The notes under the pieces are model-generated. The model was not told the origin of the DNA and made no database searches. It saw only the letters and a list, made by a program, of their open reading frames with translations. A stretch of 64,000 nucleotides of DNA from Ekhidna lutea (GTDB lineage Bacteria > Bacteroidota > Bacteroidia > Cytophagales > Cyclobacteriaceae), in assembly GCF_900188325.1 (NCBI RefSeq), contig NZ_FZPD01000006.1, forward strand, positions 186,001 through 250,000. The letters are read 5' to 3'. The translations under genes were made by a program, and so were the position numbers. Positions within the stretch are counted from its first letter, which is position 1. Each line of letters begins with the position of its first letter. Below are positions 14,150 to 18,542 of this stretch, piece after piece.

Positions 14150-15631
14150 CTACTCAACCAAATCCTGATACTCATTTCCATCCCAAACCTGGCATCTAAT
14201 TGCATTTCTAAGCACTCTAGGCTTGAATAGTGGCTTTCCCATCAAAATACGCCCACATTCTTGAATGCCTTCAATAATGGATGGGTGTGGGTGAATCAGT
14301 TCTGCCAATTCTTTGATACTGTTGTCTTGTGAAATCAAAAGGGCAACTGCCTGAATAGCACTGGAGGCATGCTCTCCTACCACACGCATACCCAGAATGT
14401 TCATCTCATCATCATTTGTCACCAGGACCTTGATAAAGCCCTGCGTGTTTCGCATAGCCGTAGCACGGGAGATGGTCTCGTAGTTCAAGCTGACCATTTT
14501 GTACTGCAAGCCTGCTTGCTTTGCCTGTATTTCATTCATTCCTACCCCTGCTACTTCTGGATCAAGGAACATTATTGTGGATATATTCTTATAAATCAGT
14601 GGCTGTTCCGGCTTGCCAAAAATGCGTTCCACCGCATAGCGTCCCTCCAATTCACCAACATTTACCAGGGATATATCTGCGGTAATATCTCCAACCGCAT
14701 AAATATTTGACACAGATGTTTGGGTCAGGTCATCTTTAATTCCACGATCATCTATCTCTACCCCAAGGCTATCATCCAATAACTTATCATACTGCGGAAC
14801 GCGACCAATAGAAATCAATCCCTTTTCTACCCTGAAACTTTCTTTGTTCCCATCTGTATATTCAAGAATGTATACAACCTCTTCTTCCTCCACTCTCATC
14901 TCTATCAGTTTGGAGTTTCTATGAATTAAAACCCCTTTTGCTTCAAGATTTTTCTCTATCACCTTAACAACGTCTTCATCTTCGAATGGTAGAATCCGAT
15001 CTCCTTTATCAATTAAGTGAACCTTGGTGTGTCCAAAATTGGAAAATATGGTTGCAAACTCACATCCAATCACCCCGGCACCCACAATCACAATTGACTT
15101 GGGGAAGTGGGTAAGGTTACTAAGTCCATCGGAGGTAAAGACAATTTCTTCATCTATAGGAAGGTGCGGTAATTTTCGAGGCACACTTCCAGTCGCTAAA
15201 ATGATGTACTGAGCCTCCAGGCATTGATCCTGACCGTTTCCGGAAACTTCCACGGTATTCTTACTTGTCACCCGGCCTGTTCCGTGAATATATTCAAACA
15301 GATCACCACCCAAACCCAGGTTGATGTTCTGCATGTGATGTGTGAGCAGATTCACACGCTGATCTACCGCCTGTGCAACTTCTCCTTTTACTTTCTCATA
15401 GCTGAACTCGGTGCTCCCTACATTGAGGGCATTTCCATGCACGTTTATCATTCGAGCTTCTCGGGAGATTTCCCACCATGTTTTGCTCCAAAGTGCACCT
15501 TGATGGATTCCTGCACCTCCTAATTTATCTTTTTCAATTAGGGCTACACTTTTACCGAAATCGATGGCTCGCATAGCTGCAGCATATCCTGCAGGGCCGC
15601 CACCGATGACACAGACGTCAAATTTCTTCAT
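14150..15631 (-). CDS. Dihydrolipoamide dehydrogenase-like flavoprotein lacking redox cysteines
   Basis: 493 residues with the full class I pyridine nucleotide-disulfide oxidoreductase fold: FAD site GGGPAG (10-15), NAD(P) site GAGVIG (194-199), second FAD motif IYAVGD (310-315), and the C-terminal dimer domain with HPHPSIIE (H447, H449, E454). The usual redox motif GGTCLNVGCIPSK is replaced by GGAGIHQGALWSK (38-50): both active-site cysteines are gone. It therefore cannot act as a disulfide reductase. Soluble transhydrogenase-like or other hydride-transfer chemistry with FAD is possible. It starts 80 bp downstream of non-coding RNA copy A and runs in the same direction. Confidence 0.85.
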   Translation of the reverse strand: MKKFDVCVIGGGPAGYAAAMRAIDFGKSVALIEKDKLGGAGIHQGALWSKTWWEISREARMINVHGNALNVGSTEFSYEKVKGEVAQAVDQRVNLLTHHMQNINLGLGGDLFEYIHGTGRVTSKNTVEVSGNGQDQCLEAQYIILATGSVPRKLPHLPIDEEIVFTSDGLSNLTHFPKSIVIVGAGVIGCEFATIFSNFGHTKVHLIDKGDRILPFEDEDVVKVIEKNLEAKGVLIHRNSKLIEMRVEEEEVVYILEYTDGNKESFRVEKGLISIGRVPQYDKLLDDSLGVEIDDRGIKDDLTQTSVSNIYAVGDITADISLVNVGELEGRYAVERIFGKPEQPLIYKNISTIMFLDPEVAGVGMNEIQAKQAGLQYKMVSLNYETISRATAMRNTQGFIKVLVTNDDEMNILGMRVVGEHASSAIQAVALLISQDNSIKELAELIHPHPSIIEGIQECGRILMGKPLFKPRVLRNAIRCQVWDGNEYQDLVE

Positions 15632-15711: not shown

Positions 15712-15949
15712 GCAAAAAGGGCGAAGAATCATTGACTGATTTTCGCCCTTCTAATACTGCAACTGCCGAAGCAACTGCAATATTTCAAACTACTGTTCGG
15801 ACTCCCTTCGGATGCGCCTTCAAAAGTTGCCTTTTGATTCGCTTTTCTTCAACAATCATTCAAACTTCGCTGATCCAAGCCAAACTTAAAATCAACTTCC
15901 CTTTGTCTGATTGGAAACGTGAGTTTCAGTTTCCTATCCCTTGTTTGAT
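15712..15949 (-). ncRNA. Structured non-coding RNA, copy A
   Basis: About 236 nt from a start near 15949 to a T-run at 15718-15714. A close copy lies at 17488-17722. Shared structure, in RNA order: a 5' hairpin with GGAAAC/GUUUCC arms (15934-15913); a long-range stem CAAUCA/UGAUUG (15913-15908 with 15858-15853); inside it GUUGAU/AUCAGC (15896-15891 with 15874-15869) enclosing the highly conserved core; a 7-bp hairpin with a GCAA loop (15837-15820); a 14-bp hairpin with a UUCG loop (15784-15753); and an intrinsic terminator hairpin GGGCGAA...UUCGCCC. It is not coding: the corresponding frame has no start codon and an in-frame stop. I do not recognise the family; 6S-like or regulatory RNA are possibilities. 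Confidence 0.8.
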
Positions 15950-15953
15950 GATA

Positions 15954-15984
15954 CTAATGTAGAGTATAACTTTACATCTTCAAA
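15954..15984 (-). promoter_or_regulatory. Promoter of non-coding RNA A
   Basis: On the minus strand, TTTG (15984-15981), 19 bases, TACATTAG (15961-15954). This is the Bacteroidota sigma pattern with one mismatch in TAnnTTTG. The same two elements with the same 19-base gap occur before copy B. Confidence 0.75.
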
Positions 15985-16000
15985 AATTGTAAGTGCTTAG

Positions 16001-16043
16001 TTTTCAACAAGTTTTACCATAGTTTTCCACCTAGTTATTCACA
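16001..16043 (-). promoter_or_regulatory. Four phased upstream boxes of RNA A / M48 gene
   Basis: Plus-strand boxes TTTTCAACA (16001), TTTTACCA (16012), TTTTCCACC (16023) and TTATTCACA (16035) begin 11, 11 and 12 bp apart, one helical turn each. Copy B has the same boxes at the same spacing. The last one resembles a DnaA box (TTATNCACA). They lie just upstream of the RNA A promoter and just before the divergent M48 start at 16058, so they may bend DNA or bind an activator or DnaA for both. Confidence 0.6.
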
Positions 16044-16057
16044 TATTGTACTGGTTA

Positions 16058-17467
16058 ATGAAAAGGATTGCCCAAAGTCTGGTGATGACCCTGGTTACAT
16101 TTTCTATTCAAGCTCAACAGGTTAATTACCCAAGTCTGACTGTCTTTGATAAAGGATCAACCGAACTAATCCGGGATTTGAAAGATCAGAAAGATGAAGA
16201 AATAAAAGAGCAGCGCATCCCCACTTCAAGTGATTATGCTTCGGTTTACGATCAAACCACCGATTATCTTATTAATCTGGTTGAAAACGAAAAATTCATC
16301 AATGACGATGAGATCCAGGCATACATCGATGAGATCAATGAAAAACTCACCATTCATAACCCGGAGGTAAAAAAGATCAAAAAACTGCTTATCGCGAGAG
16401 ATGGTTTGCAAAATGCAATTTCCTACGGAGAAGGTACGGTATCTATTAACCTGGGACTTATCGCTCAAGCAGAAAGTGAGGATATGATCGCATTTATACT
16501 TGCGCATGAACGAGCACATTATCATTTAAATCACCTAAGAAAGCGGATTGACAGTCACCTGCGAAGAGCATCCACAAGATCTGTTGAACGAAGAATCAAA
16601 AAGATTCCGGAAGGAACCATGACGCTTGAAGACTTGGAATATGTGCAATATTGGTTCAGCACAATGTTTATGAAAAGTAGAGGTAATGAACTAGAAGCAG
16701 ATTCACTTGCATTACTCATGTTAAAAAATAGCGGTTACAGTGTGCATGCCTCCATTGAAGCACTCAAAAAGTTAAAATCTGCCTACCATCCGATTTATCC
16801 TTTAAAAACATCACTTTTTGATGCATTCATCTTCAAGGAGATCCCTTTCAAGAAGCGATGGTTAACACCAAGAAAAGCTTTGCAAGCCGATGATTTATTC
16901 AGGCACTTACTAAATAATGATTCGATTGAAACACATCCCGATCTAGACCTTAGGGTACAAAGGATAATAGCTGAAACGATGAATACGGCACCTAGAACGT
17001 CCACGCCAATCCCATCAAACTTAAAAAGTGTTTCGCATAACAATCTTGTCGATTGTTTTTATGAAACAAAATTTTATGATTTAGGTATACATCATGCCTT
17101 GCAGCTCAAAGCACAAGCCGACAACAAGAGCTACTTTGATTTTGAGATCGGAAGGATGCTCTATGAAATAGCCCTCGCTAAAAACGATAAAATATTACCT
17201 GGTGTAATAAGGATTAACATCGATCATTATCCCGATGAAACCAAAGCGCTCAACTATTTTCTCTACAATCTGACGGTTGCTGAGGCGGCTGAAATTTCAT
17301 ACCTCTATGTCAAGAAAAACTTTGATCCGCAAAACCCTGATCATTACAGAGTGCTGCACAACATCTTATTAATCACTAACAGGTTTTCGGAGGATAAAGA
17401 GCTGAGAAAAAAATTCAGGAAGACTTTTTCGGGAGAAAGTTTAAACAAATATTCAGACGCGGATTAG
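16058..17467 (+). CDS. M48-family zinc metalloprotease, secreted
   Basis: 469 residues from ATG 16058 (a TTG at 16046 is in frame but less likely). A short signal peptide (MKRIAQSLVMTLVTFSIQAQ) leads to a peptidase domain with zinc motif HERAH at 150-154 and the third ligand in GNELEADSLAL downstream, the M48 HExxH...ExxAD layout. The C-terminal 200 residues are helical and resemble the repeat extension of BepA/Oma1-type envelope proteases that degrade misfolded outer-membrane proteins. The gene stands alone on the plus strand between the two minus-strand RNA copies, and shares its upstream control region with RNA A. Confidence 0.88.
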   Translation: MKRIAQSLVMTLVTFSIQAQQVNYPSLTVFDKGSTELIRDLKDQKDEEIKEQRIPTSSDYASVYDQTTDYLINLVENEKFINDDEIQAYIDEINEKLTIHNPEVKKIKKLLIARDGLQNAISYGEGTVSINLGLIAQAESEDMIAFILAHERAHYHLNHLRKRIDSHLRRASTRSVERRIKKIPEGTMTLEDLEYVQYWFSTMFMKSRGNELEADSLALLMLKNSGYSVHASIEALKKLKSAYHPIYPLKTSLFDAFIFKEIPFKKRWLTPRKALQADDLFRHLLNNDSIETHPDLDLRVQRIIAETMNTAPRTSTPIPSNLKSVSHNNLVDCFYETKFYDLGIHHALQLKAQADNKSYFDFEIGRMLYEIALAKNDKILPGVIRINIDHYPDETKALNYFLYNLTVAEAAEISYLYVKKNFDPQNPDHYRVLHNILLITNRFSEDKELRKKFRKTFSGESLNKYSDAD

Positions 17468-17487
17468 TTCTTAAACCAGGATAATAA

Positions 17488-17722
17488 CAAAAAGGGCGAA
17501 GAATCAGATTGATCTTCACCCTTTCAATACTGCAACTGCCGTAGCAACTGCAATATTTCAAACTACTGTTCGGATTCCCCTTCAATGCGCTTTCTGGAGT
17601 TGCCTCCAAAACCGCTTCTTCAAAGCAGTCATTCAAACTTCGTTGATCCAAGCCAAACTTAAAATCAACTTCCCTTTGCCTGACTGGAAACATTTGTTTC
17701 AGTTTCCTATCCCTTGTTTGAT
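17488..17722 (-). ncRNA. Structured non-coding RNA, copy B
   Basis: Same order of elements as copy A: GGAAAC/GUUUCC hairpin; long-range stem CAGUCA/UGACUG (17686-17681 with 17631-17626), where the A-U pair of copy A has become G-C; GUUGAU/AUCAAC; a GCAA-loop hairpin UUUGGAG/CUCCAGA (17610-17593) in which three pairs changed on both sides and a fourth became G-U; a 14-bp hairpin with UACG loop (17557-17526), still of UNCG type; and a terminator hairpin with T-run at 17493-17489. Two-sided changes that keep pairing are direct evidence for a functional folded RNA. It lies between phhA and the 3' end of the M48 gene. A 92-codon open frame across it is judged accidental. Confidence 0.8.
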
Positions 17723-17726
17723 GATA

Positions 17727-17757
17727 CTAATGTAGACCATAATTTTACATCTCCAAA
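17727..17757 (-). promoter_or_regulatory. Promoter of non-coding RNA B
   Basis: On the minus strand, TTTG (17757-17754), 19 bases, TACATTAG (17734-17727). Both elements and the spacer length equal those of copy A, while the spacer sequence has diverged. Confidence 0.75.
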
Positions 17758-17773
17758 CTTTGTAACCTTCTAG

Positions 17774-17816
17774 TTTTCAACAACTTTTACCCTGGTTTTC
17801 CACCAGGTTATGCACA
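17774..17816 (-). promoter_or_regulatory. Four phased upstream boxes of RNA B
   Basis: Plus-strand boxes TTTTCAACA (17774), TTTTACCC (17785), TTTTCCACC (17796) and TTATGCACA (17808), with 11, 11 and 12 bp between starts as in copy A. The last box touches the stop codon of phhA, so the element occupies the whole gap between that gene and the RNA promoter. Confidence 0.6.
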
Positions 17817-18542
17817 TTATGCTATAGCTGCCAACTTCTCCTGCATTAGCTTTTTTATCTCCGGAATAGAATTATATAACTGTTCGTATGATTCCGTGAT
17901 AAAATACTCGGTTTGAAATACATCTTTTCTATAACCGGTCTCAAGCATATGCTCGATGCTGAACTTATGTTTAGGAGGCTCCTCGCTTAGTGAAAATTTG
18001 GTTTCGCCCGCTGAGGAGAGAATGCCGGCCCCATATATTCTTAGCCCCTCTTTTTCCTGAATCAATCCAAACTCTACGGTAAACCAGTACACTCTTGAAA
18101 GCAGCTGAATGGCGTAATCATTTCCCACATACTCCAGCCCAATCTTACTAAGCTCCTCCAGGAAGTTGACAAAATGCTGATTGGTAAGTAGGGGCACATG
18201 CGCAAACACATCGTGAAACATATCCGGCTCTTCCAGGTAATCCAGCTCTTTCATTTTCCTTAACCATGTTGTGGCTGGAAATCGCTTGTTAGCCATCAGT
18301 TCAAAGAAAGTATAATCAGGCACAATCCCCGGCACCACGGCCAGCTGCCAGCCGGTAGTGTCTTGAAGAATCTGGTTTGTTTCCTTAAAATCAGGTATCA
18401 GCCCCGTCTCAAAGTCTGCAATCTTTAACCCTTTTTTATAAGCATCACATGCATGGGTTGGAAATTGCTTCATCTGCCGATCAAACAAAATCTTCCAAAC
18501 CTCAAAATCCTCCTGTGTGTAGTTGTCGTAAATCTGCCTCAT
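17817..18542 (-). CDS. phhA: Phenylalanine 4-monooxygenase
   Basis: 241 residues, the size of bacterial single-domain aromatic amino-acid hydroxylases. Iron ligands are in place: H110 and H115 in PDMFHDVFAHVPLL, and E157 in VYWFTVEFGL. It converts phenylalanine to tyrosine using O2 and a pterin cofactor. It has no N-terminal regulatory ACT domain. It starts 2 bp after the DAHP synthase stop and is the last gene of the trp operon, so tyrosine supply would be co-controlled with tryptophan synthesis. Confidence 0.93.
   Translation of the reverse strand: MRQIYDNYTQEDFEVWKILFDRQMKQFPTHACDAYKKGLKIADFETGLIPDFKETNQILQDTTGWQLAVVPGIVPDYTFFELMANKRFPATTWLRKMKELDYLEEPDMFHDVFAHVPLLTNQHFVNFLEELSKIGLEYVGNDYAIQLLSRVYWFTVEFGLIQEKEGLRIYGAGILSSAGETKFSLSEEPPKHKFSIEHMLETGYRKDVFQTEYFITESYEQLYNSIPEIKKLMQEKLAAIA

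Follow-up and report, generated by a model that had tools for sequence, protein, structure and literature searches.

Two structured RNA genes of Ekhidna lutea point to a new RNA family with DnaA-box-like sites upstream of its promoters

Two RNA genes in the Ekhidna lutea genome

The 64,000-nucleotide stretch of the Ekhidna lutea genome analysed here (contig NZ_FZPD01000006.1, positions 186,001 to 250,000; hereafter the window) contains two related segments on the minus strand that appear to encode a structured RNA. Copy 1 (15712..15949) is about 238 nt long and copy 2 (17488..17722) about 235 nt. The two are 86% identical over the RNA (87% by BLAST) and remain similar for about 95 bp further upstream, beyond the start site. 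Folding is far better than that of dinucleotide shuffles, with z values of -6.1 for copy 1 and -5.9 for copy 2 and none of 200 shuffles as good for either. An earlier note on this DNA, made from its letters alone, had described promoter elements, hairpins and a terminator in both segments, and this description is borne out: judging by its sequence, each copy is a stand-alone RNA gene with a Bacteroidota-type promoter, a structured RNA of about 235 nt and a terminator.

Both promoters read TTTG-N19-TACATTAG, which is near the -33/-7 layout of Bacteroidota. In copy 1 the -7 element TACATTAG is found at 15954..15961 and the -33 element TTTG, 19 bp away from it, at 15981..15984; the corresponding elements of copy 2 lie at 17727..17734 and 17754..17757, all on the minus strand, and the -7 element of either copy is conserved in relatives. 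Main promoters in Bacteroidota carry TAnnTTTG, and the -7 box of Flavobacterium psychrophilum spans -12 to -5, as described in the part of PMC9723704 drawn on here. Assuming this register for the two copies, transcription would start at 15949 and 17722, exactly at the 5' ends proposed earlier.

From 5' to 3', the RNA is laid out as a helix, P1, that encloses an internal loop, followed by variable arms, a hairpin usually capped by a UNCG loop, and the terminator. The P1 strands of copy 1, UCAAAC (15943..15948) and GUUUGA (15785..15790), pair with each other, and the same strands occupy 17716..17721 and 17558..17563 in copy 2, where they belong to the motif count over 72 loci given below. On its 5' side the internal loop reads AAGGGAUA (15935..15942 in copy 1, 17708..17715 in copy 2), nearly invariant in an alignment of 55 sequences (A5), and on its 3' side AACAGUA (15791..15797 and 17564..17570), nearly invariant in an alignment of 56 sequences (A4). 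A 14-bp hairpin stands directly 3' of P1 in copy 1 (15753..15784) and has its equivalent, seen in the fold and the pairing count, at 17526..17557 in copy 2; its cap is UUCG in the first and UACG in the second, as had been said. Intrinsic terminators, each a hairpin with a U run, complete the minus-strand genes at 15713..15752 and 17488..17525, and that of copy 1 is kept in A4 and in the 17-sequence alignment of homologues, A2.

Differences between the copies also preserve pairing. In the hairpin with the GCAA loop, three A-U pairs of one copy are replaced by G-C, G-C and U-A, and a C-G pair becomes U-G. The pair change that the earlier note had seen in the long-range stem is likewise present in the sequence. 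Its statement that the central core is almost unchanged does not extend beyond the genus and its nearest relatives; farther out, neither the core nor the GCAA hairpin is kept.

Conservation and covariation of the fold

Can these pairings be followed into more distant homologues? P1 offers the most direct answer. Motif searches placed both of its strands in 72 of 95 hits, the other 23 being without an anchor, and in 72/72 of these loci standard pairs are formed at 5/5 positions, one of the five being fixed by the very 5' motif used for location. The strands lie 127–583 nt apart and show two-sided changes, with variants that include CTGAAC/GTTCAG and CCAATC/GATTGG; a sixth position is paired in 59/72. 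Adjoining P1, the internal loop retains RAGRGAUA facing AACNGUA with few exceptions in A5 and A4. Its AGUA strand hints at a bulged-G (loop E) motif.

The remainder of the structure was examined in A2. RNAalifold predicts 58 pairs for this alignment, 28 of them with two-sided changes, against 14.4 in shuffled controls. The pairings that the earlier note had described for the two copies thus persist in homologues, P1 in all 72 loci and the A2 fold in 95.6% of 980 cells; the shuffled mean for the latter is 88.4% (0/500 as high), and slid controls reach at most 52.1%. Two-sided cells number 83, compared with 27.2 after shuffling, and the covariation score is 0.350 compared with 0.212.

A test blind to structure used a MAFFT alignment of 46 distinct short forms from the window's family and another one of Cytophagales; in two further forms the 5' motif could not be located. 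As a null, the parsimony substitutions of each branch were re-scattered on a FastTree tree, with 236 columns kept. Among 27,028 column pairs, the best 11 all fall within the fold that RNAalifold gives for the same alignment. Every one of the 46 short forms folds at a z below -2 (40 shuffles each).

Two further features were considered and set aside. An encoded small protein is judged unlikely, as stops interrupt all three sense frames in 43/46 short forms and the longest ATG open reading frame (ORF) spans 36 aa. A pseudoknot between the loop of the middle hairpin and a downstream strand, looked at in close relatives, is weak (on average 12.8/16 paired over 4 bp) and is not claimed.

Comparison with described RNA families

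The earlier note could not match the RNA to 6S RNA, transfer-messenger RNA (tmRNA), RNase P RNA, signal recognition particle (SRP) RNA or a riboswitch, and covariance-model scans together with ARAGORN uphold this. No gathering-level match to any of the 4,227 families of Rfam 15 was found in the window. Permissive scans of the two copies and of 20 homologous 3-kb loci returned only sub-threshold scores at chance level, the best being 23–24 bits with chance E-values. A gathering-level scan of 11 loci, which included forms of about 430–675 nt, gave nothing on the RNA itself; its only hits lay elsewhere in these stretches, on a tRNA and on a cobalamin riboswitch of no relation to it. RNase P and SRP RNA had no covariance-model match in the scans of window, copies and homologous loci, and ARAGORN detected no tRNA or tmRNA in the window, where neither a tRNA-like domain nor a tag ORF accompanies the RNA. 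We are almost certain, from sequence comparison, that this is a new structured RNA family unmatched in Rfam 15.

6S RNA deserves a closer look. It is a long hairpin with a central bubble that mimics an open promoter, binds RNA polymerase and serves as template for a product RNA. A functional analogue of it that binds RNA polymerase would explain why RF00013 is silent in both whole genomes scanned (G000 and G005), and the occurrence as tandem paralogues is reminiscent of those bacteria that have two copies of 6S. Yet the RF00013 silence means little because a Bacteroides control was missed too, and neither RF00013 nor RF01685 (6S-Flavo) matched in the Rfam scans, which for RF01685 covered the window, the copies and the 20 and 11 loci. 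The shape argues against it as well: in the consensus, the short helix P1 closes off a multi-branched core, and there is no single long bubbled hairpin. We therefore regard a 6S analogue as improbable.

In the titles and abstract openings searched, the RNA is not named; many subscription papers were outside reach, so that its absence from print is not established. Stand-alone structured RNAs as such are already known; what was not found in the sources searched is this RNA family and its promoter layout.

Distribution within Cytophagales

Homologues were sought by DNA similarity and with three models: R1, a whole-RNA model built from A2; R2, a model of the 3' module; and R3, a model of the promoter and first nucleotides built from 55 sequences. 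DNA similarity finds the RNA in 7/10 genomes of the genus, that of the window included, and 6/7 of these have two copies whose starts are 0.4–1.8 kb apart. In the window's family, R1 matches 61/245 genomes and 27/84 genera. R3 at E<=0.01 matches 147/245 genomes and 57/84 genera, and a single genome can have as many as five matches; the two or three weakest overall may be chance. Further copies in related genomes, which together with covariation the earlier note would have counted as support for a new family, are thus at hand, and around 60% of the sampled family genomes (by R3) carry a structured RNA without a match in Rfam 15.

Over the order, R1 matches 24/291 genomes: 10 from the same family, nine from a second family (f8) and five from two further families (f19 and f13). 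The f8 carriers have genomes of 1.2–1.6 Mb, and all nine show two R1 matches, eight of them as clear pairs (those in G298 overlap slightly). The f19 and f13 matches, at E 3e-5 to 0.007, are not counted because, at six fetched loci, R3 confirms none and R2 is weak or silent. Loci chosen by R3 have the independent 3' module, R2, downstream on the same strand in 14/14 cases; among these, L297 had served for training, and R2 had already matched in G159 and G087. The RNA recurs across the window's family, probably Cyclobacteriaceae, and in the second Cytophagales family.

A search with the pattern of promoter and 5' end reached 36 contigs of named genomes, including cultured Roseivirga, Marinoscillum pacificum and an Algoriphagus metagenome-assembled genome (MAG). 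R1 recovers the RNA in 28 of 33 such loci (38 minus five of the genus). The other five are put down to chance: Polaribacter L173, where the match is weak, Tenacibaculum L193, Dolichospermum L176 and two contigs of viruses. RNA length varies from about 220 to 675 nt overall, and the Roseivirga forms measure about 460 to 675 nt.

Beyond Cytophagales nothing convincing was seen: R2 over 395 genomes of the phylum gave 9 matches, 7 in the window's family and 2 elsewhere at E 0.007, which is chance level. Carriage by viruses is not indicated either, a first pattern giving none and a second only the two contigs without the RNA. With copy 2 as query, blastn found nothing among records of plasmids (72,556) or phages (50,697).

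Some loci stand out on their own. L196 (PBTY01000046.1), a carrier of the RNA, bears the label of a Rickettsiales MAG and is probably a mislabelled bin of the window's family. L151 and L154, of the genus g86 (compare L155, L156 and L157), represent a divergent branch in which CACTAAGTCAAACATTGA replaces the usual 5' motif; R1 scores there are low or partial, and R3 and R2 both detect the RNA.

A phased row of sites upstream of the promoter

Each promoter is preceded by a row of boxes about 43 bp long, which the earlier note had overlooked. In copy 1 the row comprises TTTTCAACA, TTTTACCAT, TTTTCCACC and TTATTCACA (16001..16043, plus strand), starting at 16001, 16012, 16023 and 16035; in copy 2 it comprises TTTTCAACA, TTTTACCCT, TTTTCCACC and TTATGCACA (17774..17816, plus strand), starting at 17774, 17785, 17796 and 17808. 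The steps are 11, 11 and 12 in both. The most distal box of copy 2 adjoins the stop codon of an aromatic amino acid hydroxylase gene (window 17808-17820).

Statistics were collected for the stretch upstream of -33 in the 74 distinct promoters, from 95 hits, that have a located 5' motif. TGTGGATAA, the reverse complement of TTATCCACA, occurs exactly in 35/74 promoters compared with 0.1 in shuffled sequence, and within one mismatch in 69/74 compared with 4.7. Neighbouring boxes, all in a single orientation, are spaced by 11 or 12 bp in 109/192 cases, most of the remainder being about two or three steps apart. Counted from where the scanned stretch ends, positions peak at -14, -25, -37, -48, -60 and -72. 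Chains of at least three boxes number 17 (16 distinct) in 1.30 Mb, all at RNA promoters, two having been assigned to such promoters through R3; the reversed box gives none.

These properties are shared with arrays of DnaA boxes. TTATCCACA is the DnaA-box consensus, and the arrayed low-affinity sites of Escherichia coli oriC stand exactly two bp apart (an 11-bp step), point in one direction and are filled cooperatively, as stated in the portion of PMC4451416 used here. The row has TTATCCACA-like sites in the same orientation at 11–12 bp steps, that is with gaps of about 2 bp. Because spacing, orientation and consensus agree with the E. coli sites, its layout is that of a DnaA array, and we infer that DnaA would bind it.

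Two other readings of the row have to be weighed. In the first, the RNA, of the same new family, would be an ordinary base-pairing regulator whose exposed arms pair with mRNAs, and the row would serve some unknown activator. Such a regulator would agree with the stand-alone gene, which has its promoter and terminator, and with the fast change of the arms; TGTGGATAA, whose exact sites are at chance level in G005, may be bound by a different protein. Against this, conservation is greatest in the closing helix and internal loop rather than in an exposed seed, and the box equals the published DnaA consensus in a step and single orientation that match DnaA arrays. We consider a base-pairing regulator possible, if rather unlikely. 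The second takes the row to be functional as DNA, a DnaA-titration site similar to datA or DARS, and the RNA to be a by-product of the promoter. Many genera do keep the row at the same place and in the same phase; however, selection on RNA pairings over 127–583 nt is unexpected for a by-product, and 3/6 promoters of f8 are down to two boxes while the RNA persists. A titration site is accordingly hard to credit.

Two related possibilities were rejected. The row is not a general genome motif, as a two-box pattern searched in G000 and G005 falls mostly at RNA genes (4/6 places, see below). Neither does the RNA mark the replication origin of G005: on its 4.17-Mb chromosome, dnaA lies at 1.23 Mb, far from the RNA pair (3.45 Mb), and sampling of 20 stretches of 20 kb shows no GC-skew switch at the pair. 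Exact TTATCCACA sites come close together in this genome only once, as a pair found elsewhere (L287:4372-4400, G005:C1:2347371-2347399) in about 390 bp of AT-rich intergenic sequence. It is a candidate origin, for which the local gene directions give no clear support.

Gene neighbourhoods of the RNA

In the window, the copies are accompanied by a pyridine-nucleotide-disulphide oxidoreductase gene similar to lpd (14150-15631) and one for a biopterin-dependent aromatic amino acid hydroxylase (PF00351, E 1e-49); between them, on the plus strand, lies a gene for an M48 peptidase (PF01435, E 5e-16). Within the genus, the RNA pair is placed between the hydroxylase gene and lpd. The earlier note had presented the flanking of the protease as part of the feature. 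This turns out to be incidental: the space between the copies holds the protease in the window; in G005 it has an unrelated gene of 181 aa that matches nothing in Pfam, and in G003 and G006 it is less than 200 bp without any gene. A link to the protease is rejected because this content differs from genome to genome.

In four related genus genomes the copies themselves make up two lines, with an identity of 84–92% for a–a, 81–92% for b–b and 76–84% for a–b; in G005, by contrast, the two copies are 96% alike. Close pairs are also seen in other genera (L160:5196-5956, L144:4742-5847 and L300:8491-9701), and pairs therefore seem to have arisen or been kept repeatedly. An independent case of an enclosed gene comes from f8, where four of eight loci (L227, L231, L233 and L234) have a BNR-repeat, sialidase-like gene between the copies, Pfam-tested in L227 and L231 (PF13088, E 3e-33 and 1e-35). 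G007, alone among the genus members matched by DNA similarity, has a single RNA copy, and its stretch corresponding to the protease region of the window (L124:5903-7303) contains two ORFs of 296 and 102 aa, possibly a broken protease gene.

Comparison of 20 loci from 13 genera shows no neighbour gene that all of the family would share. At most four genera have a gene cluster in common, by eye that of an FtsX-like permease; in L128, L129 and L130, from three genera, dnaE-like and thioredoxin-like genes (by eye) follow 3.4–4.3 kb downstream. The next downstream gene is on the strand of the RNA in 11/20 loci and on the opposite strand in 9/20. This pattern fits a stand-alone gene that is inherited while its surroundings change slowly.

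It also bears on a cis-regulatory leader, such as a riboswitch or attenuator, or a part of a mobile element. Two copies do flank a gene, and two genera share a same-strand homologue 69–82 bp downstream. Set against this are the terminator of the RNA itself, the lack of any conserved downstream gene on the same transcript among the 13 genera, the many opposite-strand neighbours, and tandem copies that enclose different genes or none, to which the silence of copy 2 in the plasmid and phage records adds for a mobile element. A leader or mobile element is thus very improbable.

A possible RNA arm of the DnaA circuit

Taken together, the observations suggest a new family of trans-acting, protein-binding RNAs whose synthesis is tied to DnaA. 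We put this forward tentatively, as a reading that falls a little short of probable; its DnaA step makes the more specific claim, and fewer tests bear on the scaffold step. DnaA, or else a protein that recognises the same site, would cooperatively fill the same-strand row and thereby set promoter activity, and the promoter would in consequence follow the DnaA state, and with it the replication state, of the cell. The RNA would fold around P1 and present the invariant loop as a docking site for a protein partner, while the variable arms would be species-specific and free to change. It may then act in trans as the scaffold of an RNA–protein particle. A bolder version, which we deem conceivable but doubtful, is that an oriC-like DnaA filament array drives a chromosomal RNA family that would form a replication-state-coupled RNA arm of the DnaA circuit; as a ribonucleoprotein, the RNA may feed back on DnaA or on chromosome replication.

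Several observations weigh against this proposal. Concerning the fold, the structures were predicted from the same alignments in which they were tested, which favours the A2-derived fold in the A2 count. Further pair types in A2 exceed shuffling slightly (63 compared with 58.2; 13/500 as high), and the strict structure-blind test leaves only 4/27,028 column pairs at E<=0.05, of which P1 contributes two, and an inner stem and the 3' hairpin one each. Concerning distribution, two of the ten genus genomes (G002 and G008) are unmatched by DNA search, R1 and R3, and a third (G009) has a weak R1 match only; the RNA may therefore be dispensable there, or may have been missed.

The remaining points concern the row and its surroundings. 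The two copies of the window have no perfect box, the best having one mismatch, and most RNA promoters, these two included, stay below three boxes at the chain cut-off; most of the 1.30 Mb was moreover chosen because it bears the RNA. Single TTATCCACA sites in G005 are at chance (47, with 50 for the reversed control), and for this reason the claim for DnaA rests on clustering, phase and place. Half of the six f8 promoters show two boxes only (by eye). With up to 3 mismatches, the two-box pattern finds six places in G000 and G005, four of them RNA genes with 1–2 mismatches and two other places with 3, against four for the reversed control. Finally, the homologous same-strand gene just downstream in two genera (cluster 30) makes for partly shared neighbourhoods, and a cis role is therefore possible in some lineages.

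What gives the family its interest is the combination of compensatory pairing over hundreds of nucleotides, a threefold size range and a phased, initiator-like row at the promoter. If control by DnaA is true, replication state would be linked to a dedicated RNA.

Relation to known systems

Large lineage-restricted RNAs of the OLE, GOLLD, ROOL and raiA kind are intergenic and structured, have peripheral domains of variable size, and have a partner that is unknown or are RNP-like. The RNA described here is similar to them in being intergenic and structured with size-variable peripheral domains. It differs in its core, size range and host range, in the phased DnaA-like array upstream and in having no Rfam match.

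With 6S and 6S-Flavo RNA (RF00013, RF01685), the latter reported for Bacteroidetes in the part of PMC2864571 consulted, it shares the character of a stand-alone bacterial RNA of about 200 nt (in the short forms) with its own promoter. It is set apart by its multi-branched fold with a short closing helix, by lengths of up to about 675 nt in Roseivirga and by the lack of a covariance-model match. The Rfp sRNAs of Flavobacterium psychrophilum are, like it, independent structured transcripts of Bacteroidota, going by the available description in PMC9723704. The two were set side by side by description, and R2 outside the window's family gave chance-level matches only (395 phylum genomes).

For the promoter, the closest parallel is provided by the arrays of E. 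coli oriC. Here as there, several 9-bp sites follow one another in the same direction at short distances (2–3 bp in the row), the published consensus being TTATCCACA, according to the section of PMC4451416 on which we draw; the row described here, in contrast, stands upstream of an RNA promoter, in G005 far from dnaA.

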